Source: a virus
Length of the DNA: 38,577 nucleotides
Virus record (IMG/VR): IMGVR_UViG_3300017963_000466
Coordinates: 1 to 38,577 of that record
Strand: one strand, 5' to 3'
The notes under the pieces are model-generated. The model did no database searches. It was not told the origin of the DNA and saw only the letters and a list, made by a program, of their open reading frames with translations. This document shows positions 23,431 to 35,773 of the stretch, in pieces. Each line of letters opens with the position of its first letter. Position 1 is the stretch's first letter. The position numbers were made by a program, and so were the translations under genes.

Positions 23431-25217
23431 TCTACTTCCCTTTGACCTTTATCCTTGCCTCTCACCAGTTTCTTGCCGTCGGGGTTCTTCTCAGGATCTT
23501 GGGAGGCGGCCTTCTCATCTTTAGCTGCCTGCGGGTCCGTTGTATCCAACCCACGAGCCGCCAAATTCTCAGCCGTCTTCGCTGCTTGAGCTTCTGCCCG
23601 CCTGATTTCAAGATCAAGTTTCTCCTCGTGGGCTTTCTTCGCCTCGCCCTCGGGATAACCCCGAGCTTTCGAAGCGAACTCACGAGAGACCAAACCAATC
23701 TCGACGTCCGTTCGGATCTGATCCGCGTCCGCCGTGGGGAAGTCAGATTTATCAACTTCTGCCAGCATCTTATCGAGAGTCGAATCAGCCACTTTTCCAG
23801 CCAAGAGAATCTCAACGATTTCCTTGTGTACTTCTCGGCGAAACGTGTGGGAACTGACATCGACGGCGGTTTTCGCGAGTTGCTCCGCGTCTTTCCGCCT
23901 GTCCTCGTCAGAGCGAAGCGAGTATCGCTCTGGGTAGCCGACTGTGCTTTCTTCTCTGAAGCCTTCGTAATCACTCCAGATCTCCACGATCCGTCGCTCG
24001 GCGTGCTCAAGCACCATACCGATAGCGGACAAACCTGATTCCAGGCCGCGTTCATCCATCTGCTTAGACTCAGCAGACGCGAACCGTGATCGCGTGTTGG
24101 CAACCGACAGGTTGGAGAGCGAGCGAATGTCGTTCTTCAACTGTGTCTGCTTCTCCATCGACGCGTGCAGCGGCTCGGTGGGAGGCGAAATGTATCCGGG
24201 ACGCTCAGCACCCATCGGGTACCGCACGCCATCTGTGGAGCCAATCTTACGCGTGACTTTGTTGTCGTCGTAAATGATATTACCATCAGAGTCCGTGGTC
24301 GTCAGCGAGTCGGATTCGCTCCAGTTCGCCGCCGCTTCGAATCTCTGATCGTACTGCTCCGTGTAGTTGGGCACGTTCGACCGCAGGATGTAACCGGCGT
24401 CGGCCGATTCCATGTTCGTCAATGCGATCTGATGATTCGCGGTGTCCGCCAGGAGCGAGGCTTGCAGCTCCATAATGACGAACGGAATCTCTTTCGTATC
24501 CAACTCCGTCGGGGCGAACTCCGACGGCTCGTAGTTCTCATCCACGGGATCGCCGGTGTCGTTGTACTGCTGAAGCAGCACGGCGTTGTCCTCGATCCAG
24601 TACAGACGGAAGTATTCGTTGTAATCCGTCACCAAGTCGAAGTCGTGGTCGCGGTCCTCGTCGTACACACGCAGCAAGAGGCGTTGAAGTTTGACCTCGT
24701 CGCCCTTGATGAAGTAGTCCCAGTTACGGATGTCTTCGGTGCGGTACGTGTACAGGTAGGGGTGTTCCATACCCCGCTGGTTCCGCGTGCGTCGGCCCTC
24801 GAACTTGAAGTTATCGACGTAGACGCCGACCTTCCCCATTGAGAGCAATTCTAGCAAAGCCTCGTTCCCAAGGAAGTGGTTCATGGTGGACCCGCACAGG
24901 TCAACCCCACCCCTCTGTCCGCGTATGGCGTCTTGCCAGCTTTCTGGACCACCGTTGCGTCTGATTGCAGGCATTCGCTGGAATATGGCATTTTGCACGT
25001 CTTTGACGGCAGCCTTAGCGAAACCTGCTACTGGCGTGATGGATTTTCGATTGATGAAATCCGTCTCATCTTCAGCGGACGAGAATTGCTTCACGTACTT
25101 CTGGATGAAGGTGTCTCCGCCATCCATAACATATCGGTATTTTTCCCAATCGGTGAACGAACGAGCGTACTCGTAGTGCACCGACGTGGCGATATTAAAC
25201 TCTTTCTTTTTGGCCAT
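23427..25217 (-). CDS. Portal protein (DUF4055-like)
   Basis: This 596-residue protein is directly downstream of TerL. It has a conserved N-terminal segment with a 'SITPVAGFAKAAVKDVQNAIFQR' style helix, a central acidic beta region (IEDNAVLLQQYNDTGD) and the long C-terminal helices typical of portals (QTQLKNDIRSLSNLSVANTR ... AIGMVLEHAERRIVEIW). The twelve-subunit portal is the DNA gate and terminase docking site. The C-terminal 60 residues are charged and low complexity. It starts at TAATG, coupled to TerL. A palindrome lies at 23603-23616. Confidence 0.8.
   Translation of the reverse strand: MAKKKEFNIATSVHYEYARSFTDWEKYRYVMDGGDTFIQKYVKQFSSAEDETDFINRKSITPVAGFAKAAVKDVQNAIFQRMPAIRRNGGPESWQDAIRGQRGGVDLCGSTMNHFLGNEALLELLSMGKVGVYVDNFKFEGRRTRNQRGMEHPYLYTYRTEDIRNWDYFIKGDEVKLQRLLLRVYDEDRDHDFDLVTDYNEYFRLYWIEDNAVLLQQYNDTGDPVDENYEPSEFAPTELDTKEIPFVIMELQASLLADTANHQIALTNMESADAGYILRSNVPNYTEQYDQRFEAAANWSESDSLTTTDSDGNIIYDDNKVTRKIGSTDGVRYPMGAERPGYISPPTEPLHASMEKQTQLKNDIRSLSNLSVANTRSRFASAESKQMDERGLESGLSAIGMVLEHAERRIVEIWSDYEGFREESTVGYPERYSLRSDEDRRKDAEQLAKTAVDVSSHTFRREVHKEIVEILLAGKVADSTLDKMLAEVDKSDFPTADADQIRTDVEIGLVSREFASKARGYPEGEAKKAHEEKLDLEIRRAEAQAAKTAENLAARGLDTTDPQAAKDEKAASQDPEKNPDGKKLVRGKDKGQREVE
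23603..23616. repeat. 14-bp palindrome variant (TGATTTCAAGATCA)
   Basis: Near the end of the portal gene; position 10 is G. Confidence 0.5.
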
Positions 25218-26860
25218 TACAGGAAACTCCGAATATTCTGGTTCGTGGCGGCGGATGCTGCCAGCGGGAGGGCCATCTCGCTGTAGTTCCTCGCATGTGC
25301 GAAGTGGTCCGCTTCCTTCTTTACGTATTTGGAAATGTCGTCGCCCGATGCGTCTTCAACATATCTCTTAACCAGCGCTTTGATATTAGACCGATACTCC
25401 TTCGGCAGATCCTTCGGGAACTTGATGCGTCCCGACCGGATACGTCCGAGGGCGGTATCGAGCCAATACGTGCGGCTGACACTGACCAAATGATCTTCGT
25501 CATTCGGTGCCACGACCATCTTACGGGAGCCAACGCCCCTCGAATAGTGACAACGCTTGGCCCTTCCCCAGGCGCGCATGCACAACTCGTGTACCGAGCG
25601 TTCTTCGGGCTGCTTGTCAATCACCAGGAAGTTGACGTTGTATTCCCGCATCAGTTGGTAAATCTCGTCGAATCGTTCGACCTTGCCCACCTGCAGAACC
25701 TCGCATTCCGCACCCATGTTCAGGTCCGGTCCCATCCGTCCGATACGCCAGCCGTCGATCTCGTAGTGTAACCACTTTCCGACGTCAACGCCCATCGTCC
25801 TGATCTTGTACCCAGGGATCGGATCGCCCATCTTGCGAGTGCCGTAGCACGCGTCGAGTTGCTCGTCATTGATCTGAGCACCTTTGACGACGTGCGGTAG
25901 TCCCGCGATGGAGTTCCAGAGTTCCTGTTCCGCAGAGGGCTTGTCCTCAGCTTCGAGAGCCGTAATCGCGATCTTCCACGGCTCCTTCATGCAACTGGCG
26001 AGCTGGTTGATGTAGAAGCCACGACGTTCAGGATTGATGTCGGGCGACTTCGGTATCCACCGACCAGTTTCAACTTGTGATTTGATCTTGTCCTTGTGCT
26101 CCATTTTCTTCTTGCACAGCGGACAAATGATGTGTGACTCTTTGATTCTAGGATCAATTAGCGACTCCCCGACGACAACGAGACACTCCGGAAACGTCAG
26201 AGTGATCTCCTTCCAACAGTTCGGGCACTGGAAGTACCACGACTCCTGGGTCGTCGTTAGAAACATCTCATGGATGCCGGTGCCTGGTATTGTCGGCGTG
26301 GAAATGCCCCATATCTCGGACACTTCCTGGCCGTCAGTACGTCGCATCGCCAACTGGATGCCGTCCTCGTCCATTTCATCGACTTCGTCCAGTGCAACGA
26401 ACGACGGGTCGATTGATTTCAGGCCGATGCGGCTTCGCGATCCTCTGATCCACAGGTTGGCGGCTCCCGCCCGCTTGTGGCCGACGTTCTTCACATCAGA
26501 GAACATCTGTCGGATGTGTTCGGACTCCTCTAGTGCAGGATCAAAGCGGGACGCGGAGAAGTCGGACGCGTCAGGGTTCTTGTTCGGAAAGACATACAAG
26601 CAGTTGACGCCTGTGATGTCCATTTTGAAGAAGGTTCGGTTAAGAAGCGTCTCCGTGTAGGCCATCTGGGCGGCCTTCATACCCATGTTGAACGGAGCGG
26701 TGGAGTCATGCATCGCTTTGGACCAAGGATGCATACCAAAGGACCATTTGCGGCCTTGGCGCACACGGTATGCCTGTGCCCATTGCGAACATAGCTTGAT
26801 GCTCTTTCGCTTTAGGCCGCCGGTCACGATTTCTGCAAATACTTGCTCCAAAGCGTGCAT
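25217..26860 (-). CDS. Terminase large subunit (lambda GpA-type)
   Basis: Of 547 residues. A degenerate Walker A lies in the N-terminal part (GMKAAQMAYTET, without the usual GK[ST]), and Walker B is FVALDEVDEM near residue 155. The coupling motif is GISTPT. A four-cysteine zinc knuckle (CPNC ... CPLC) and a nuclease domain opening with GVDVGKWLHYEIDG follow. Together these are diagnostic of GpA-family terminases, which cut concatemers and drive DNA into the prohead, often making cohesive ends. A palindrome copy (TGATTCTAGGATCA) lies at 26153-26166. Confidence 0.9.
   Translation of the reverse strand: MHALEQVFAEIVTGGLKRKSIKLCSQWAQAYRVRQGRKWSFGMHPWSKAMHDSTAPFNMGMKAAQMAYTETLLNRTFFKMDITGVNCLYVFPNKNPDASDFSASRFDPALEESEHIRQMFSDVKNVGHKRAGAANLWIRGSRSRIGLKSIDPSFVALDEVDEMDEDGIQLAMRRTDGQEVSEIWGISTPTIPGTGIHEMFLTTTQESWYFQCPNCWKEITLTFPECLVVVGESLIDPRIKESHIICPLCKKKMEHKDKIKSQVETGRWIPKSPDINPERRGFYINQLASCMKEPWKIAITALEAEDKPSAEQELWNSIAGLPHVVKGAQINDEQLDACYGTRKMGDPIPGYKIRTMGVDVGKWLHYEIDGWRIGRMGPDLNMGAECEVLQVGKVERFDEIYQLMREYNVNFLVIDKQPEERSVHELCMRAWGRAKRCHYSRGVGSRKMVVAPNDEDHLVSVSRTYWLDTALGRIRSGRIKFPKDLPKEYRSNIKALVKRYVEDASGDDISKYVKKEADHFAHARNYSEMALPLAASAATNQNIRSFL
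26153..26166. repeat. 14-bp palindrome variant (TGATTCTAGGATCA)
   Basis: In the terminase gene near the zinc-knuckle codons; position 10 is G. Confidence 0.5.
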
Positions 26861-26872
26861 GATATGACTCCG

Positions 26873-27199
26873 TTACTCGCCTCGCGGCACTGGAGAGTCG
26901 TTCCGTGGAACGTAGCTGCCAGGTCGCCGCACTTCGACTGACGCTTTCTGCGTCACTTCAGCGGACTTGACTGTCCGTTTGGGCTTAAAATCAATGAGTT
27001 CTCCGTCAACGATTTCAGCACCGATGCCGACTCGCGGGTCCATCGGTTCCGTGTCACACTTGTAGTCGCCTGTCAGATGGAAGTAGACGTGTCCGAGGGC
27101 ACCGTTGTGTCCCGTTCGGACCTTCTTATCGTCCAGGTAAACATCCACCAAGCCCTCGGTGGGCGTAAAATCAAATCGTTTCTTTGGCACTTTAGCCAT
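26873..27199 (-). CDS. Unknown small protein upstream of terminase (108 aa)
   Basis: A compact beta-rich core (GLVDVYLDDKKVRTG, ALGHVYFHLTGDYK, then GIGAEIVDGELI) is followed by a basic, proline-containing tail (EVRRPGSYVPRNDS). No family is recognised. Placed between the exported-protein cassette and TerL and overlapping the former by eight bases, it might be a packaging accessory or a cytosolic factor. Near-palindromes lie at 26980-26993 and 27170-27183. Confidence 0.5.
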   Translation of the reverse strand: MAKVPKKRFDFTPTEGLVDVYLDDKKVRTGHNGALGHVYFHLTGDYKCDTEPMDPRVGIGAEIVDGELIDFKPKRTVKSAEVTQKASVEVRRPGSYVPRNDSPVPRGE

Positions 27200-27539
27200 A
27201 TCGAGGCTCCAAGATAACTAAGGAAAGGATAGTGAGTAGGACCTTGAGGATTGTGTCCCAATTCTCTCGAATCCACTCGCACAATGTGTCCATGATGAGG
27301 ACATACCAGGGTGGTTCCACGTCGTCGAAGACGAAATCCGCCACCGTGGCGGCTCTACCCTGCCGGACAACACGCTGGTTCAGCGAAGTCACGGGGATTT
27401 TCACTTCCCCGGCGCGGACTTTCTCGCTCAGCACTACTTCCAGAGCGGTCGCGAATCTACTTCGCCGAAACGGCCCCGCGAAAGGCATGTTGAGGGCTGG
27501 GAGAGCCGCCACGCCTGCTACGAATTCACGTCTTTTCAT
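27192..27539 (-). CDS. Tat-leader protein with C-terminal membrane helix (115 aa)
   Basis: The N-terminus MKRREFVAGVAALPAL carries the twin-arginine pattern RRxF followed by a hydrophobic stretch, and the C-terminus ends in a second hydrophobic helix (ILKVLLTILSLVILEP). The protein would be exported, or span the membrane twice. It follows the thioredoxin-like gene (14-base overlap) and may be a holin-like or membrane partner of the exported cassette. The ATG at 27539 is chosen because the earlier in-frame start gives an Arg/Pro-rich extension lying inside the previous gene. Confidence 0.55.
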   Translation of the reverse strand: MKRREFVAGVAALPALNMPFAGPFRRSRFATALEVVLSEKVRAGEVKIPVTSLNQRVVRQGRAATVADFVFDDVEPPWYVLIMDTLCEWIRENWDTILKVLLTILSLVILEPRYG

Positions 27540-27963
27540 TGATTTTACACTCCTTGGCGGCCTTCTCGATCTTGGCCGCACTGGTGATACCTACAAACTT
27601 CTTGACCACCACTCCCTTAACGAAGATGACCGTCAAAGGGAGCCCGGTGGTCTTTCCTTTGAGGTGTTGGTAGAGTTTCGGGTTTTTATCTGCATCAAAC
27701 GTCGCCGTTCGATAGCCCGCTTTCTCAAGCGAGCCAATAATTTTCTTCTGACGGGGACAGAAGACGCACCATTGGGCTCCAAAGAGGACGATTGTGGGCT
27801 CGTCCCAGAGTTCCTGGTAGTCTTCGAGGCCTTCTGGTGCCGTCGGTCGAGCCAGGAGATCAACAAGCGTACTCTGGTCTTGAACTTCGCCATATCCTTG
27901 TCCACCACCGAGCGATAGACAAAATAGAGCACAAGCAATGGAAAGGCATACTTTAACATACAT
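27526..27963 (-). CDS. Exported thioredoxin-fold protein
   Basis: A Sec-type leader spans about residues 1-24 (basic start, then CLSIACALFCLSLGG). The thioredoxin core has the active site WCVFC (C66/C69) and a cis-proline at about P109 (TGLPLTVIF). At 145 residues it is a compact TlpA/DsbE-style thioredoxin acting outside the cytoplasm. It sits between the papain-like peptidase and the Tat-leader protein, so it may reduce or isomerise disulfides in these partners, which is inference. It is unusual in a phage late region. Confidence 0.7.
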   Translation of the reverse strand: MYVKVCLSIACALFCLSLGGGQGYGEVQDQSTLVDLLARPTAPEGLEDYQELWDEPTIVLFGAQWCVFCPRQKKIIGSLEKAGYRTATFDADKNPKLYQHLKGKTTGLPLTVIFVKGVVVKKFVGITSAAKIEKAAKECKINEKT

Positions 27964-27972
27964 CCGACACTC

Positions 27973-28971
27973 CTAGTAGAGTTGGTGGTTATCGAATTTT
28001 TGTCGGGGATGGCCGACGTAGTTGGATAGGGCGTGGGAGTCATCCCACGGACCGAGCATAAGATCAACCGTGCTGGCGTCAGCCCAGAAGGAACCGACGG
28101 GTTGCCCCATGACCAGCGGGCCGCTATTCCAGTCGAGCCACGAACTGATGATACACGCGCCGGGTCGGCGGCCGTCGTTGAAGCCGACGGCCAGCCAGGC
28201 ATGGTACCACTTCTCACGCCAACGTCCAGTGATCGGCTTCGCAAAGCCTTCACTATCTCGGACGTCGTCAATTGCGTAGTTTGAGCAGATGACCACGGGC
28301 TGTCCCAGATAGATAGCATCGCAGACGTCCCGGTAGTCTCTGACCTTTGCGAAATCTTTGATTGGATGCTTCTTCGCGATGGGCTCCAGCCAGTCTGGCA
28401 CGCCAGCATCGCGATAGCGTCGTGATCGGGCGGGGTGGTAGCCGGTCAAGTTGATGAAGTTGTCACCCTCTTGATACATAGTGCGATGTAAGACACCGTA
28501 TTGCTGCACGTATTGTGCTGCCCACTCGCCTATGCTACCGGCACCGCCTTCAAGTTGCCCTTTGCCGATCTCTACACGAGAACCGGCGTAGATCATCTCA
28601 ACGCTGGCCTTCGCGACCCAGCGTTCTTTATCGTACTTCATGTAGATGTCGGTCGCTGTCAGCAAGTCAGCCCCGAGGGCTGTTGCATGACCGACACAAT
28701 CACCTTCGCCCGGCGACCCGTCTGGGTGTCGGCTCTGGCTGTGTGGGTGGAGTTCCTCGCCGGTGGCGAGTTCGTAGTATTTCCACAGCAGAGTTCGCTT
28801 ACCCCGACTGATTCCTTTGAAGTCGCCGTAGGCACGGTGGAAGTGCCTGCGGGAAGAAAGGTGCGGTATCGCTCCGAAGTGCGTTACGCGTGGCCTTTTA
28901 GGAGGGCTCGCGTACACCAAGTGTGCGAACGGCAATGCCGCTAGTGACTTCAGAGCGTCCCGACGTTTCAT
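27973..28971 (-). CDS. Exported papain-fold cysteine peptidase-like protein
   Basis: The leader MKRRDALKSLAALPFAHLVYA has paired arginines and a hydrophobic core ending in an AxA-like site, a Tat-like form. In the mature part GEGDCVGHATALG (C92), KWYHAWLAVGF (H257) and SSWLDWNSG (N282 or D280) appear in the Cys-His-Asn order of papain-type (C1) enzymes; the usual oxyanion Gln is replaced, perhaps by E89. At 332 residues it is near family length. It may cleave host envelope protein or peptidoglycan at lysis. No other endolysin was seen, making it the best lysin candidate here. Confidence 0.6.
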   Translation of the reverse strand: MKRRDALKSLAALPFAHLVYASPPKRPRVTHFGAIPHLSSRRHFHRAYGDFKGISRGKRTLLWKYYELATGEELHPHSQSRHPDGSPGEGDCVGHATALGADLLTATDIYMKYDKERWVAKASVEMIYAGSRVEIGKGQLEGGAGSIGEWAAQYVQQYGVLHRTMYQEGDNFINLTGYHPARSRRYRDAGVPDWLEPIAKKHPIKDFAKVRDYRDVCDAIYLGQPVVICSNYAIDDVRDSEGFAKPITGRWREKWYHAWLAVGFNDGRRPGACIISSWLDWNSGPLVMGQPVGSFWADASTVDLMLGPWDDSHALSNYVGHPRQKFDNHQLY

Positions 28972-29633
28972 TTGAAAGCCCTTTCAATTCCATCTGCGAT
29001 GGCGTTCCATGTTCTTTGGTAATCGTCTCTCGTGCTGAGTCCATCGTTTGCGGCTAATTCGTCGAGATGCGTTCCAAGCTTGTCGAGGAATGGCATCCAG
29101 GCTTGTAGAGAAGTTCCGAGGGCCTGCTTATTCGCGAGGGCAGTTGCTTCAAGTACCTTGTCAACTGGGAGTTCTGCACCTGCGAGGGCTCGAAAGGATT
29201 GCGCCAACTTAATGGCTTCCTCCCGTGTGTTATCGGACTCTACGAGTCGTGACCACTGTTTGATTTTAGACTCAATGGACGGTCCAGGACCCGGTCCCGG
29301 CACGCCGCCATCCACGGTAATCGAATGCGTCATCATTATGGGCTGGTTGTCTGGACCGACGCCGGACACAATCACCAGCCACATGCTCGCCTCGCGAGCT
29401 GAAAAGCACGCAACCTTGCCAAAGGCTTTGAAGTCCATACACTCTTCGAGAGTGGCATCGACGCGGACGACCTTCCAAGTGACTTCGGGAGAGGCCGACG
29501 CGGAGGCGTCGAGCGTTACGAGTTCGCCAATTTCACAGACGTCCGGTGCTTGCAGCACGAGGGCTTCGGACGTGATACCTGCGGCTCCGAGGGGAGTCGC
29601 AATGAGGGCGAGGAGGATAGCAAAATACTTCAC
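28968..29633 (-). CDS. Exported protein with PKD/Ig-like N-terminal domain (221 aa)
   Basis: A signal peptide (KYFAILLALIATPLGAAG) is followed by a PKD-like beta domain (CEIGELVTLDASAS ... VTWKVV), a Pro/Gly linker (PGPGPGP) and a helical C-terminal half. The stop overlaps the start of the peptidase gene (ATGA), so the two are translationally coupled. Its role is unknown; it could tether or position the peptidase in the periplasm. A perfect palindrome lies at 29261-29274. Confidence 0.55.
   Translation of the reverse strand: MKYFAILLALIATPLGAAGITSEALVLQAPDVCEIGELVTLDASASASPEVTWKVVRVDATLEECMDFKAFGKVACFSAREASMWLVIVSGVGPDNQPIMMTHSITVDGGVPGPGPGPSIESKIKQWSRLVESDNTREEAIKLAQSFRALAGAELPVDKVLEATALANKQALGTSLQAWMPFLDKLGTHLDELAANDGLSTRDDYQRTWNAIADGIERAFK
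29261..29274. repeat. 14-bp palindrome, perfect match (TGATTTTAGACTCA)
   Basis: In the exported PKD-like gene; same sequence as the copy at 2235 on the other arm. Confidence 0.65.
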
Positions 29634-32336: not shown

Positions 32337-32552
32337 TTATTCGTCCCACTCTTTCTTCCAATCTGGCCCTTTCTTCGGATTGCTTTTCTTCCTACCACTC
32401 ATCAAGTCCTCGAAAGTCGCGGCTTGACGCACGTAATACTTCGAATTGTCGTATTCGACTTCCGCTTCACCATCCATCGGCAAAAGATGGAACAACTCGT
32501 CGGTTGCTTTGTGGAAAACACCGGCGTATGATTTGTTTTTCTTCGTTTTCAT
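32337..32552 (-). CDS. Small charged protein of unknown function (71 aa)
   Basis: The ATG at 32552 overlaps the stop of the LRR gene (ATGA). The product has a basic N-terminus (KTKKNKSYAGVFHK), an acidic centre and a basic C-terminus (GRKKSNPKKGPDWKKEW), with no membrane segment. It might be a chaperone for the preceding fibre-like proteins, judged only by coupling and size. Confidence 0.45.
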   Translation of the reverse strand: MKTKKNKSYAGVFHKATDELFHLLPMDGEAEVEYDNSKYYVRQAATFEDLMSGRKKSNPKKGPDWKKEWDE

Positions 32553-33598
32553 GCCGTTACCGTCCATCCTTTCCCTACCAGGTTGGCTTTCGCCGTTGTT
32601 GCGGCCCCGCTCCGGAGCCCGTCAGCCGATCCTGGGTTACTGGAATACACCAGAAGGCCGTTTGAGGCCCCTGCGGTGTCCAAATTGACCAAAATATCGT
32701 CGATTTCCGCCGCTTCGAGGTCGTTACCGTTCGCGTACAGCGTGGTGAGGGCGACCAAGGTGCTCGGAACCGTTAACGTCGTCAAACTGCACTGATTGAC
32801 GAATGCCGTGTCCATTTTCGTCCAAGTTGACGGGAAAACGACGCTTGTGATGCCTGAATTCAGGTTACAAGCGAAGTCCGTAATCTCCGTCCACTCGCTG
32901 TGGAGCGTCAAACTGCTCAAATCATTCGAATTCGCGAACAATCTATACAGTTCGGTCCACTCAGCGTGCGTTTCGAGGCTCGTCAGGTCATTGTTGTTGA
33001 CGTCGAGGCGTTCGAGCAGCGTCCACTCGGCATGAGTGTCCAGTGACGTCAGGTCGTTACCATTGATTCTAAAATCACGCAGCTTGGTCCATTGCTTGTG
33101 CGTGTCAAACGACGTCAAATTGTTGCTGTACGGCCAAAGTTCGTCGATTTCCGTCCAAGTCGGGTAAGTTTTGAGTTCCGTGAGGCCACAAGCCTGGCAC
33201 CGGAGCGTTGCGAGGTCCGTCCACGTCGCAAAAGTGGTGACCGTCGCGAGCAGCGGGTTGCCGTCGATGACCAAACCCACTAGGTTTGACCATTTTCCGT
33301 CCATGACGAGGCCAGTGATGTTCTGATTACGGCACGTTAACGCGGTTAGCGTGTCTTCGAGCACGGCTGTCGCGATGTTGGGCGGCGAATCCGGGCTGAA
33401 AGTGTGGTTGAAGCTGAATCCGGTGGACGACTGACCATCACTGAAGGTCCAGGTAGTCTGGCCGCCTCCAGCGAGCGTCGTCGCTGCGGAGTAGCTCGTC
33501 TCGTTTGCCGTTATGACAATCGAACCGAACGGGTTTCGGCCGTTAATAAACGGCTTTTTCCGCTTCAACTTGTGTTTTGGTGTGCCGTTGCTGAACAT
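32549..33598 (-). CDS. Leucine-rich-repeat adsorption protein, copy 2
   Basis: The 349-residue protein has a basic N-terminus (KHKLKRKKPF), a short PKD-like domain (TTWTFSDGQSS), then about eight repeats of roughly 23 residues of the form LTSLETHAEWTELxxLxxxxN. The cap EAAEIDDILVNLDTAG and the C-terminus NPGSADGLRSGAATTAK are shared with copy 1. Such LRR proteins are often receptor-binding or fibre tips. The ATG at 33598 overlaps the paralogue's stop (TAATG). A perfect palindrome lies at 33064-33077. Confidence 0.7.
   Translation of the reverse strand: MFSNGTPKHKLKRKKPFINGRNPFGSIVITANETSYSAATTLAGGGQTTWTFSDGQSSTGFSFNHTFSPDSPPNIATAVLEDTLTALTCRNQNITGLVMDGKWSNLVGLVIDGNPLLATVTTFATWTDLATLRCQACGLTELKTYPTWTEIDELWPYSNNLTSFDTHKQWTKLRDFRINGNDLTSLDTHAEWTLLERLDVNNNDLTSLETHAEWTELYRLFANSNDLSSLTLHSEWTEITDFACNLNSGITSVVFPSTWTKMDTAFVNQCSLTTLTVPSTLVALTTLYANGNDLEAAEIDDILVNLDTAGASNGLLVYSSNPGSADGLRSGAATTAKANLVGKGWTVTA
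33064..33077. repeat. 14-bp palindrome, perfect match (TGATTCTAAAATCA)
   Basis: In LRR copy 2; identical copies at 35470 and 38297. Confidence 0.65.
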
Positions 33599-34662
33599 TA
33601 TGCTGTCACAGTCCAACCCTTAGTGATCAGATTAGCCTTCGCTGTGGCGGCAGCACCGCTCCGGAGGCCGTCGGCCGATCCTGGGTTCCCATTGTAGATT
33701 AACGAACCGTTGGTATTGCCTGCCGTGTCCAGATTGATAAGCAGGTTATCAATCTCCGTGGCGTCCAAGTTGTTGATGTGGACCCAAACAACATCTACGT
33801 TTGTCAACGCAGAAGGAACCGTGAGCGTATGCAACGCTGTCGTCTTCATCGTCTGGGCATAAAGCTCGCGGAGTGCCGTCCATTGAGACGGAATGTTCAA
33901 GGTGCCGTCGCCCCAACGCGTGCTGGCCACTACGAACTCTTCAATGGACGTCCACGTGGTCGGCAGGTCCGTTTCGAGAAGGCCGGTGTTACTGTTGACC
34001 CAGAACTCTCGAAGCTTGGTCCACTCACTGTGAACCTCAAGGGACGTGAGCGAGTTGTTATTCGCCCGAATCACTTCGATCTCGGTCCACTCAGGGTGCG
34101 TCTCGACGGTCGTGAGGGCGTTGTAATCGACCCACAACTGTTCGAGCTGAGTCCATTGCGGCCACGTCTCAAGAGCCGTCAGATTGACGTTCGAGGATGC
34201 CACGAACTCCCGAACCTTAGTCCATGTCGGGTACGTTTTGTATGTTCCGGTGTGTCGGCAGTTGTGGAACTTGATGATCTCTAGCGACGTCCAGGTTGAA
34301 AAGGACGGCACATTCGTGATCAACGGATTCACGTCCATGATCAACGTTTCGAGGTTGCTCCACTTGCCGTCCAGAATGATCGCGTCGAGGTTATTGACAC
34401 GACAATTCAGGCTGGTCATGATTGATTTTAACACCACTGATGCGGTGTTCGGCGGGTTGCTCGGCGTGAACGTGTGGATCAGCTGCTGGGCCGTTACCGT
34501 GTTCCCGTCGCTCAAGATCCATTCAGACGGCTCGCCACTCGCCAGACCTACGGTGGCGTTAATGTCGCCGTCTTGGGTCGATAGCACGAAGCTACCGAAT
34601 TTGGACTTGCCGTTCTGGAACGGCTTTTTCTTCTTCAATTTGTGGTCTGGATGTGTTTTCAT
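33598..34662 (-). CDS. Leucine-rich-repeat adsorption protein, copy 1
   Basis: This 354-residue tandem paralogue of the next gene has the same basic start (DHKLKKKKPF), the PKD-like domain (EWILSDGNTV), Trp-containing 23-residue LRRs (LTSLEVHSEWTKLREF) and C-terminus (NPGSADGLRSGAAATAK). The ends are nearly identical, while the repeat faces differ, as expected if the two recognise different ligands. A weaker palindrome (TGATTTTAACACCA) lies at 34433-34446. Confidence 0.7.
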   Translation of the reverse strand: MKTHPDHKLKKKKPFQNGKSKFGSFVLSTQDGDINATVGLASGEPSEWILSDGNTVTAQQLIHTFTPSNPPNTASVVLKSIMTSLNCRVNNLDAIILDGKWSNLETLIMDVNPLITNVPSFSTWTSLEIIKFHNCRHTGTYKTYPTWTKVREFVASSNVNLTALETWPQWTQLEQLWVDYNALTTVETHPEWTEIEVIRANNNSLTSLEVHSEWTKLREFWVNSNTGLLETDLPTTWTSIEEFVVASTRWGDGTLNIPSQWTALRELYAQTMKTTALHTLTVPSALTNVDVVWVHINNLDATEIDNLLINLDTAGNTNGSLIYNGNPGSADGLRSGAAATAKANLITKGWTVTA

Positions 34663-34976: not shown

Positions 34977-35189
34977 TTATCGTTCCTCTAAGGGTTTCTT
35001 CGTCTTCATTCGGAGCACCATGTTAACGATGGCCATGACGCCCGCCGCGATGGCTGTGTACTCGGGGTTCGAGGACACGAAGTCGGATTCCATGAGCACA
35101 GTCAGGAACCAGACGACTGCCGCAGCCGTGTTGAACTGCATGGTGTTGGACCGGAGCATTCCGCCCAACAGGTCGGTGAGTCTACTCAT
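34977..35189 (-). CDS. Holin-like small membrane protein (70 aa)
   Basis: Two hydrophobic segments (AAAVVWFLTVLM and AAGVMAIVNMVL) and a basic tail (RMKTKKPLEER) give the size and layout of phage holins or related inner-membrane proteins. It overlaps the upstream gene by eight bases. No lytic enzyme is adjacent, so it might instead be a general membrane factor; the exported cassette lies about 5 kb downstream in the same transcript direction. Confidence 0.5.
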   Translation of the reverse strand: MSRLTDLLGGMLRSNTMQFNTAAAVVWFLTVLMESDFVSSNPEYTAIAAGVMAIVNMVLRMKTKKPLEER

Positions 35190-35742
35190 TCTTTAATACC
35201 TCCAGGAAGGAATCGGCAATTGCGTTCAGAAGACCAGTGACTTCTTCAGGGGCCACATCATTGGCCTCTGCATACTCGTTGATTTTGGAAGCAACGACGT
35301 TCATGAGCCCCGATGCCAAGTTCTGGACCTTCTGACGGTCGAGCAGCGATCCGCTCTTCGTTTCGAGCTTGTCGCAGGACTCGACGAGCTTCTGCACCTT
35401 CATCACCATCTCGGTGACAGGGCCGCTCATGATCAATAGATCCGTCGTGTCGGTGGCGGCGTTGACCTTTGATTCTAAAATCATCCGGAGCAACGCGACC
35501 TCCTCACGGAGAGTCTTGATCTTATCGTGGTCAGCGAATTCGTTGATTCTACTTTGCCACTTGGCAAGCCGGTACATGCGCATGGATTTTTGCTCCTGGG
35601 CTGCCAGTTGCCTGTTAGCGCCGTGGAGCGGACAGCGGGTTACGCCGGGTTCGGCTTTATTCGAGCACTGAGTACCGTCGGACTTAAGGGCGTCACAACG
35701 GCAAGCAGGGTCGTCATTTCGGGTCCACTTGATTACTTCCAT
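35182..35742 (-). CDS. Zinc-motif coiled-coil protein, possible small terminase
   Basis: The 186-residue product begins with a Cys/His cluster (CRCDALKSDGTQC, then CPLHG) of the type found at the start of phage proteins near terminases. A helical body follows (KTLREEVALLRMILESK) with heptad-like spacing. As the first gene of the late block it might be the small terminase subunit that recognises the packaging site, but TerL is 9 kb away and no helix-turn-helix is obvious. The ATG at 35742 is preferred to a TTG six codons earlier. A near-perfect palindrome lies 18 bases upstream and two lie within the gene. Confidence 0.45.
   Translation of the reverse strand: MEVIKWTRNDDPACRCDALKSDGTQCSNKAEPGVTRCPLHGANRQLAAQEQKSMRMYRLAKWQSRINEFADHDKIKTLREEVALLRMILESKVNAATDTTDLLIMSGPVTEMVMKVQKLVESCDKLETKSGSLLDRQKVQNLASGLMNVVASKINEYAEANDVAPEEVTGLLNAIADSFLEVLKNE
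35280..35293. repeat. 14-bp palindrome, one mismatch (TGATTTTGGAAGCA)
   Basis: In the Zn-motif gene; position 12 is G. Confidence 0.45.
35470..35483. repeat. 14-bp palindrome, perfect match (TGATTCTAAAATCA)
   Basis: In the Zn-motif gene, read in a different codon phase from the identical copy at 33064. Confidence 0.65.
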
Positions 35743-35773
35743 GATACCACTTCTTGTCAAGATTCTAGAATCA
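35741..35773 (-). promoter_or_regulatory. Palindrome plus TTGACA/TGGTATCAT element at start of the late block
   Basis: On the minus strand the order is palindrome TGATTCTAGAATCT (35773-35760, one mismatch), then TTGACAA, then TGGTATCAT overlapping the ATG at 35742. TGGTATCAT resembles an extended -10, but the spacing to TTGACA (8 bases) is wrong for a standard promoter. A close copy of the whole arrangement lies at 38535-38567. Likely a control site; its mode is unknown. Confidence 0.45.

Follow-up and report, generated by a model that had tools for sequence, protein, structure and literature searches.

A string of four genes for exported proteins lies in the late operon of a virus record from IMG/VR, the whole of which (38,577 bases, possibly a fragment of a larger genome) is called the window below. 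The genes encode a PKD-like protein, a papain-fold cysteine peptidase, a thioredoxin-like protein and a small protein with a C-terminal hydrophobic helix. We propose that their products probably breach the host envelope at the end of infection. The position of the genes, the export of their products and the missing standard lysins suggest a role in lysis. That the string is a late exported envelope-degradation (lysis) module, with the full division of labour set out below, is close to an even call, slightly on the doubtful side. Within the searches made the composition of this putative lysis module is new.

The module lies between the TerS-like and TerL genes

All four genes are encoded on the minus strand (Table 1). 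The interval 27192-29633 agrees with an earlier reading made from the sequence alone, which had described four adjacent genes for exported proteins. Indeed, the string is real and conserved, and it belongs to a late operon in which a holin-like gene precedes it. The genes are tightly packed. The PKD-like and peptidase genes overlap by 4 nt, the peptidase and thioredoxin genes are separated by 9 nt, and the fourth gene overlaps the thioredoxin gene by 11 nt and the small gene that follows by 8 nt. The latter gene is 12 nt away from the gene for the terminase large subunit (TerL). On the minus strand the late operon reads: small-terminase-like (TerS-like) gene, holin-like gene, fibre or repeat proteins, the four genes, the small conserved gene, TerL and portal. 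This slot is the usual location of cell-bursting genes in phages. Two tandem leucine-rich-repeat paralogues of near equal length (32549-33616 and 33598-34662; Pfam LRR_4/LRR_5) are also found in the window and are probably fibre or receptor-binding proteins.

Table 1. Genes of the module and its borders in the window.
Feature	Position	Strand	Remarks
Small-terminase-like gene	35182-35760	-	Upstream border; assigned by its location and conservation, matches no named family
Holin-like protein	34977-35189	-	70 aa; two hydrophobic segments plus a charged tail; weak PHROG holin match (E 0.025)
Exported PKD-like protein	28968-29633	-	221 aa; Sec leader, PKD/Ig-like beta domain, C-terminal helical domain
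Papain-fold cysteine peptidase with Tat-type leader (MKRRDALKS)	27973-28971	-	332 aa; Gln79, Cys92, His257; Ser276 at the usual Asn position
Exported thioredoxin-like protein	27526-27963	-	145 aa; WCVFC (Cys66, Cys69); conserved Pro109
Tat-type leader protein (MKRREFV) with C-terminal hydrophobic helix	27192-27536	-	114 aa with the ATG of MKRREFV as start, 129 aa with an upstream GTG
Small soluble protein	26873-27199	-	No known family; between module and TerL; conserved in L010, L011 and L013
Terminase large subunit (GpA type)	25217-26860	-	phrog_675, E 7e-76; downstream border

The peptidase is predicted to adopt a papain fold

In a single-sequence search the window peptidase matched no Pfam or PHROG family, PF00112 included. 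An AlphaFold model (pLDDT 84, pTM 0.83) had xylellain (PDB 3ois) as its best structural match (Foldseek E 2.5e-11), followed by papain and cathepsins. The model aligned with 3ois over 245 residues (Z 22.4, rmsd 3.3, 17% identity). A profile built from 18 relatives also matched 3ois (E 3.4e-15) and, more weakly, cathepsins; the alignment includes L036, by sequence its most C1-like member, which aids this match. The papain fold, which the sequence-only reading had assigned, is thus well supported by the model. Since the single sequence has no Pfam match and only the profile of 18 relatives reaches 3ois, the protein is termed papain-like and not a member of PF00112. A weak PDB match to a cellulase (E 0.03) was attributed to chance, given the clear papain fold.

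Only nine columns are invariant in the 18-sequence alignment, and Gln79, Cys92 and His257 are among them. From the fold and these catalytic residues, peptidase activity is predicted. The Asn of the NSWG motif is present in 15 of the 18 relatives and is replaced by Ser276 in the window; in papain-type catalysis this Asn is helpful, not absolutely required. The window peptidase has three further cysteines (217, 229 and 273); among the 18 relatives they lack conservation.

The slot and the thioredoxin are conserved while the protease type changes

Direct searches gave no relatives of the peptidase: neither a single-protein search of viral contigs, nor a tblastn search of 50,697 phage records with three peptidases of the family, nor a DNA search yielded a match. 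Relatives were therefore reached by way of TerL, for which a profile scan returned 80 viral loci; profile searches inside these detected peptidase relatives upstream of TerL. The order PKD-like protein, peptidase, thioredoxin, TerL was found in the window and in L006, L008, L010, L011/L012, L015, L019, L021 and L028; together with L097, a short contig with the first three genes in order and without TerL, these are about ten distinct contigs. In the window and in L006, L010, L011, L015, L019 and L021, TerS-like and holin-like genes precede the module. In L015, L019, L021 and L028 a relative of the window's holin-like gene immediately precedes the PKD gene; that of L015 matched Phage_holin_3_3 below the cut-off (E 0.015). 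Relatives of the PKD-like protein occur in about 20 loci. For the fourth gene relatives were found in L010 and L011/L012, with shorter, weak matches elsewhere.

In other loci the slot is filled differently. L029 encodes between a holin-like gene and TerL a lipoprotein-type trypsin-like protease fused to a thioredoxin (1568-2473; Trypsin_2 E 3e-16, thioredoxin 0.005). In L050, L053 and L090 the slot contains a protein that reads as NlpC/P60-like (no Pfam hit), a C39-like enzyme and a thioredoxin, and in L018 and L025 exported trypsin-like proteases are encoded upstream of TerL. Slot and thioredoxin stay constant and the type of protease changes. Outside the late operon, the L011 phage also encodes a protein that by eye resembles a C39-like cysteine peptidase (L134:10997-11608; no Pfam hit).

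The window thioredoxin scored 23.4 bits with PF00085 (E 6e-5), 0.1 short of the Pfam cut-off of 23.5, and has both the CXXC motif and the conserved proline. The residues between the two cysteines vary widely among relatives (CGPC, CKPC, CANC, CPYC and others), a pattern that suggests redox activity rather than one tuned role. The PKD-like protein had no Pfam match by sequence. Its model (pLDDT 85, pTM 0.50) consists of a beta domain and a separate helical domain; the best PDB match of the former is the PKD domain of ColG collagenase (Foldseek E 9e-5, TM by target 0.66). Pfam searches recognised no cell-wall-binding domain in the module proteins. Downstream of the peptidase several loci encode cysteine-dense exported proteins of CxCxxCxC types (L016:1446-2243, L017:1961-2647, L018:5764-6327, L006:5256-6251, L123:8722-9423), which in L006 and L123 are fused to a thioredoxin-like domain.

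Export signals accompany the thioredoxin

Tat-like leaders, which the sequence-only reading had pointed out as rare on phage proteins, were scored with a simple rule (RRx[FLAVMI][LIVMF] plus a hydrophobic stretch at the N-terminus). Of 23 family peptidases 12 have such a leader, whereas among the 1225 remaining genes of these loci only 2 satisfied the rule, and both are relatives of the fourth gene. By this sequence rule the Tat leader of the family peptidases is far above chance. The L008 peptidase starts with a textbook motif (MFTRRDFLK); Pfam TAT_signal matched 1 of 18 peptidases. PKD-like proteins have Sec-type leaders wherever the N-terminus is complete, as do most thioredoxins (that of L097 has none). 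The planctomycete-borne peptidases of L118-L120 have a leader resembling an N-terminal membrane anchor, and nine distinct peptidase relatives without thioredoxin have no leader at all. The same variety of export leader, membrane anchor or none is seen in endolysins. A thioredoxin was present with 10 of 11 Tat-bearing peptidases and with 0 of 9 leaderless ones (Fisher p 1e-4, uncorrected for shared ancestry); L024 has a Tat peptidase and no detected thioredoxin.

Five standard lysin families are missing across the TerL clade

The sequence-only reading had seen no classical endolysin, and in the window, possibly a fragment, no Pfam lysis family and no recognised peptidoglycan-hydrolase domain was detected. 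Among the best 25 of 29 Pfam families no lysis family was found in a nearly complete 60-kb relative or in a 38-kb relative. Amidase_2, Peptidase_M15_4, Phage_lysozyme, Peptidase_M23 and SLT were absent from all 26 related phage records, while control bacterial genomes matched as expected. We also asked whether a classical lysin is present where the cassette is absent. This comparison did not discriminate: the five families are missing with or without the cassette. Their absence marks the TerL clade and perhaps its hosts, not the cassette itself, and since cassette-less phages of the clade lack them too, it does not point to the cassette alone. In the literature, of which coverage was incomplete, nothing on point was found for planctomycete phages with endolysins, for Tat-exported endolysins or for protease-based lysis.

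Relatives of the peptidase in Planctomycetota

Matches to the peptidase at E below 1e-30, counted as strong relatives, were present in 12 of 392 Planctomycetota genomes, compared to 0 of 300 Chloroflexota (leaving out one genome for which a phage contig was known beforehand) and 0 of 289 Verrucomicrobiota genomes (Fisher p 1.5e-5). One Chloroflexota metagenome bin, G002, holds a close relative on a contig of 3 kb, perhaps mis-binned, which was not used as evidence on the host. Several of the relatives in planctomycetes (L120, L123, L128) sit in phage-like regions that also contain TerL or portal genes. A contig of 444 kb from a Planctomycetota MAG contains L090, a relative of TerL accompanied by the NlpC/C39/thioredoxin variant. 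Compared with the window sequence, the relatives in planctomycetes are distant. Judged from these genomes, the carriers of the module, taken as a family and apart from the window's own host, likely infect planctomycetes.

Two Planctomycetota genomes have a collinear phage-like block at the same chromosomal site (L119, G126:C4:1499700-1519600; L120, G344:C1:3672200-3692100). The two copies share host flanks (a U32 peptidase and a VTT-type membrane protein), and their identity is 85% for TerL, 87% for the portal and about 92% for a head maturation protease-like gene. The element has diverged about as much as its flanks (dS 0.7-2.2); the peptidase has a pN/pS of 0.21, the thioredoxin one of 0.40. 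These comparisons indicate a vertically inherited element in which purifying selection keeps the peptidase and thioredoxin genes. The block with its peptidase-thioredoxin module is a candidate for a domesticated phage or a gene-transfer-agent-like element.

A proposed role in opening the envelope

Late in infection, four or five proteins would be made from one overlapping gene string. The peptidase would be exported in its folded state via Tat, and the PKD-like partner and the thioredoxin via Sec. In the periplasm the PKD-like protein may help to attach the peptidase to its target or to keep it there. The thioredoxin would open disulfide bonds of a protein-rich envelope layer of the host, and may keep Cys92 reduced, the peptidase would cut the loosened envelope proteins, and the holin-like gene product and the tail-anchored fourth protein may disturb the inner membrane. 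We infer timing, target, lysis and this division of labour. Descriptions of planctomycete envelopes as exceptionally rich in disulfide-linked protein go back a long time (1986; also PMC2754498), and later work found that planctomycetes also possess peptidoglycan (PMC4432595, PMC7717043). An exported protease together with an exported thioredoxin fits the description of a disulfide- and protein-rich envelope, which would be reduced and then cut. For a target that is mainly protein rather than peptidoglycan the scales are level, and we give equal weight to the thioredoxin acting on substrate disulfides and to its not doing so. We regard as rather unlikely a phage lysis system of Planctomycetota phages, or of inherited phage-like elements, in which exported protease and thioredoxin destroy a disulfide-stabilised protein envelope instead of peptidoglycan. 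Against a lysis module count the Ser in place of the catalytic Asn, the weak holin matches (E 0.015-0.025) and the Tat peptidase of L024 without its thioredoxin.

Within the papain superfamily, NlpC/P60 and CHAP enzymes cut cross-bridges or stem peptides of peptidoglycan, and the peptidase may be an ordinary, unrecognised endolysin of this kind. NlpC/P60-like proteins occupy the same slot in three loci, and a similar fold is present in predicted phage proteins named N-acetylmuramidase and peptidoglycan-binding. Because planctomycetes have peptidoglycan (PMC4432595), a protein target is not required. However, the structures nearest to the model are genuine C1 proteases (xylellain, papain, cathepsins) and not NlpC/P60, the trypsin-type protease in the L029 slot points to a protein substrate, and the module proteins have no recognised cell-wall-binding domain. 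We consider an ordinary endolysin unlikely.

According to the sequence-only reading the exported thioredoxin switches the peptidase on; by reducing or reshuffling a disulfide of the enzyme it would activate it and time lysis. Thioredoxins indeed accompany most of the Tat-exported peptidases and none of the nine leaderless ones, the NlpC/P60 and C39 replacements are likewise cysteine enzymes, and the window peptidase carries three extra cysteines. Against the switch, the split between Tat-bearing and leaderless peptidases may be one evolutionary event, so that the cases behind the association are not independent, the extra cysteines lack conservation, there is no signal-anchor helix as in P1 Lyz, and in L029 the thioredoxin is fused to a serine protease. 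Since such an enzyme needs no free catalytic thiol, reduction of the substrate explains the fusion at least as well as a thiol switch, and the association of Tat peptidase and thioredoxin fits either. A switch of this kind appears quite unlikely, and we read the thioredoxin as working on the substrate, either instead of switching on the peptidase or in addition to it.

A role outside lysis is of similarly low probability: the proteins could reshape the surface of the infected cell (superinfection exclusion, removal of a receptor or of the S-layer, defence against host factors) or be a virion entry enzyme, for which export signals equally suited to surface work, leaderless relatives as expected of a virion protein, and a clade whose members without the cassette lack the five lysin families too can be cited, but the module is located beside the TerS-like and TerL genes and a holin-like gene, and signal peptides speak against assembly into virions.

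To our knowledge, little is known about how viruses leave planctomycete cells. If a conserved module of protease and thioredoxin takes the place of standard lysins, this would offer a testable answer: its carriers may burst cells in an unusual way, without the usual wall-cutting enzymes among the families searched. If true, enzymes to open planctomycete envelopes could become available, and phage lysis need not mean cutting of peptidoglycan.

Comparison with known systems

The module resembles the classical holin-endolysin cassette in that it is late, near the terminase genes and accompanied by a weakly matching holin-like gene, with exported or leaderless variants of the enzyme. It differs in having no recognised peptidoglycan hydrolase, and its partners are a PKD-like protein and a thioredoxin, not known spanins.

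P1 Lyz is a secreted phage endolysin of the SAR type that is activated by disulfide exchange, and the sequence-only reading had drawn a parallel to it. The parallel is not close. Common to both are a phage enzyme exported by the host and redox chemistry nearby, and some relatives (L118-L120) have an N-terminal membrane anchor. In contrast to P1 Lyz and other SAR endolysins, the window peptidase has a protease fold and not that of a lysozyme, a Tat leader and a separate thioredoxin gene, and it contains no 19-residue stretch above 1.2 on the Kyte-Doolittle scale, i.e. no N-terminal signal-anchor helix.

With the C1 family of xylellain and papain (PDB 3ois; PF00112) the window peptidase shares the fold and the Gln/Cys/His active site, and most relatives also have an NSWG-like motif. 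The low identity, the lack of a Pfam hit, the Ser at the Asn position, the Tat leader and the phage late-operon context set it apart. While the PKD-like partner is a separate protein with an extra helical domain and no detectable sequence match to the PKD domain of ColG collagenase (PDB 4jrw, 2y72), its N-terminal domain has the same predicted beta-sandwich fold, and in both cases a protease is adjacent.
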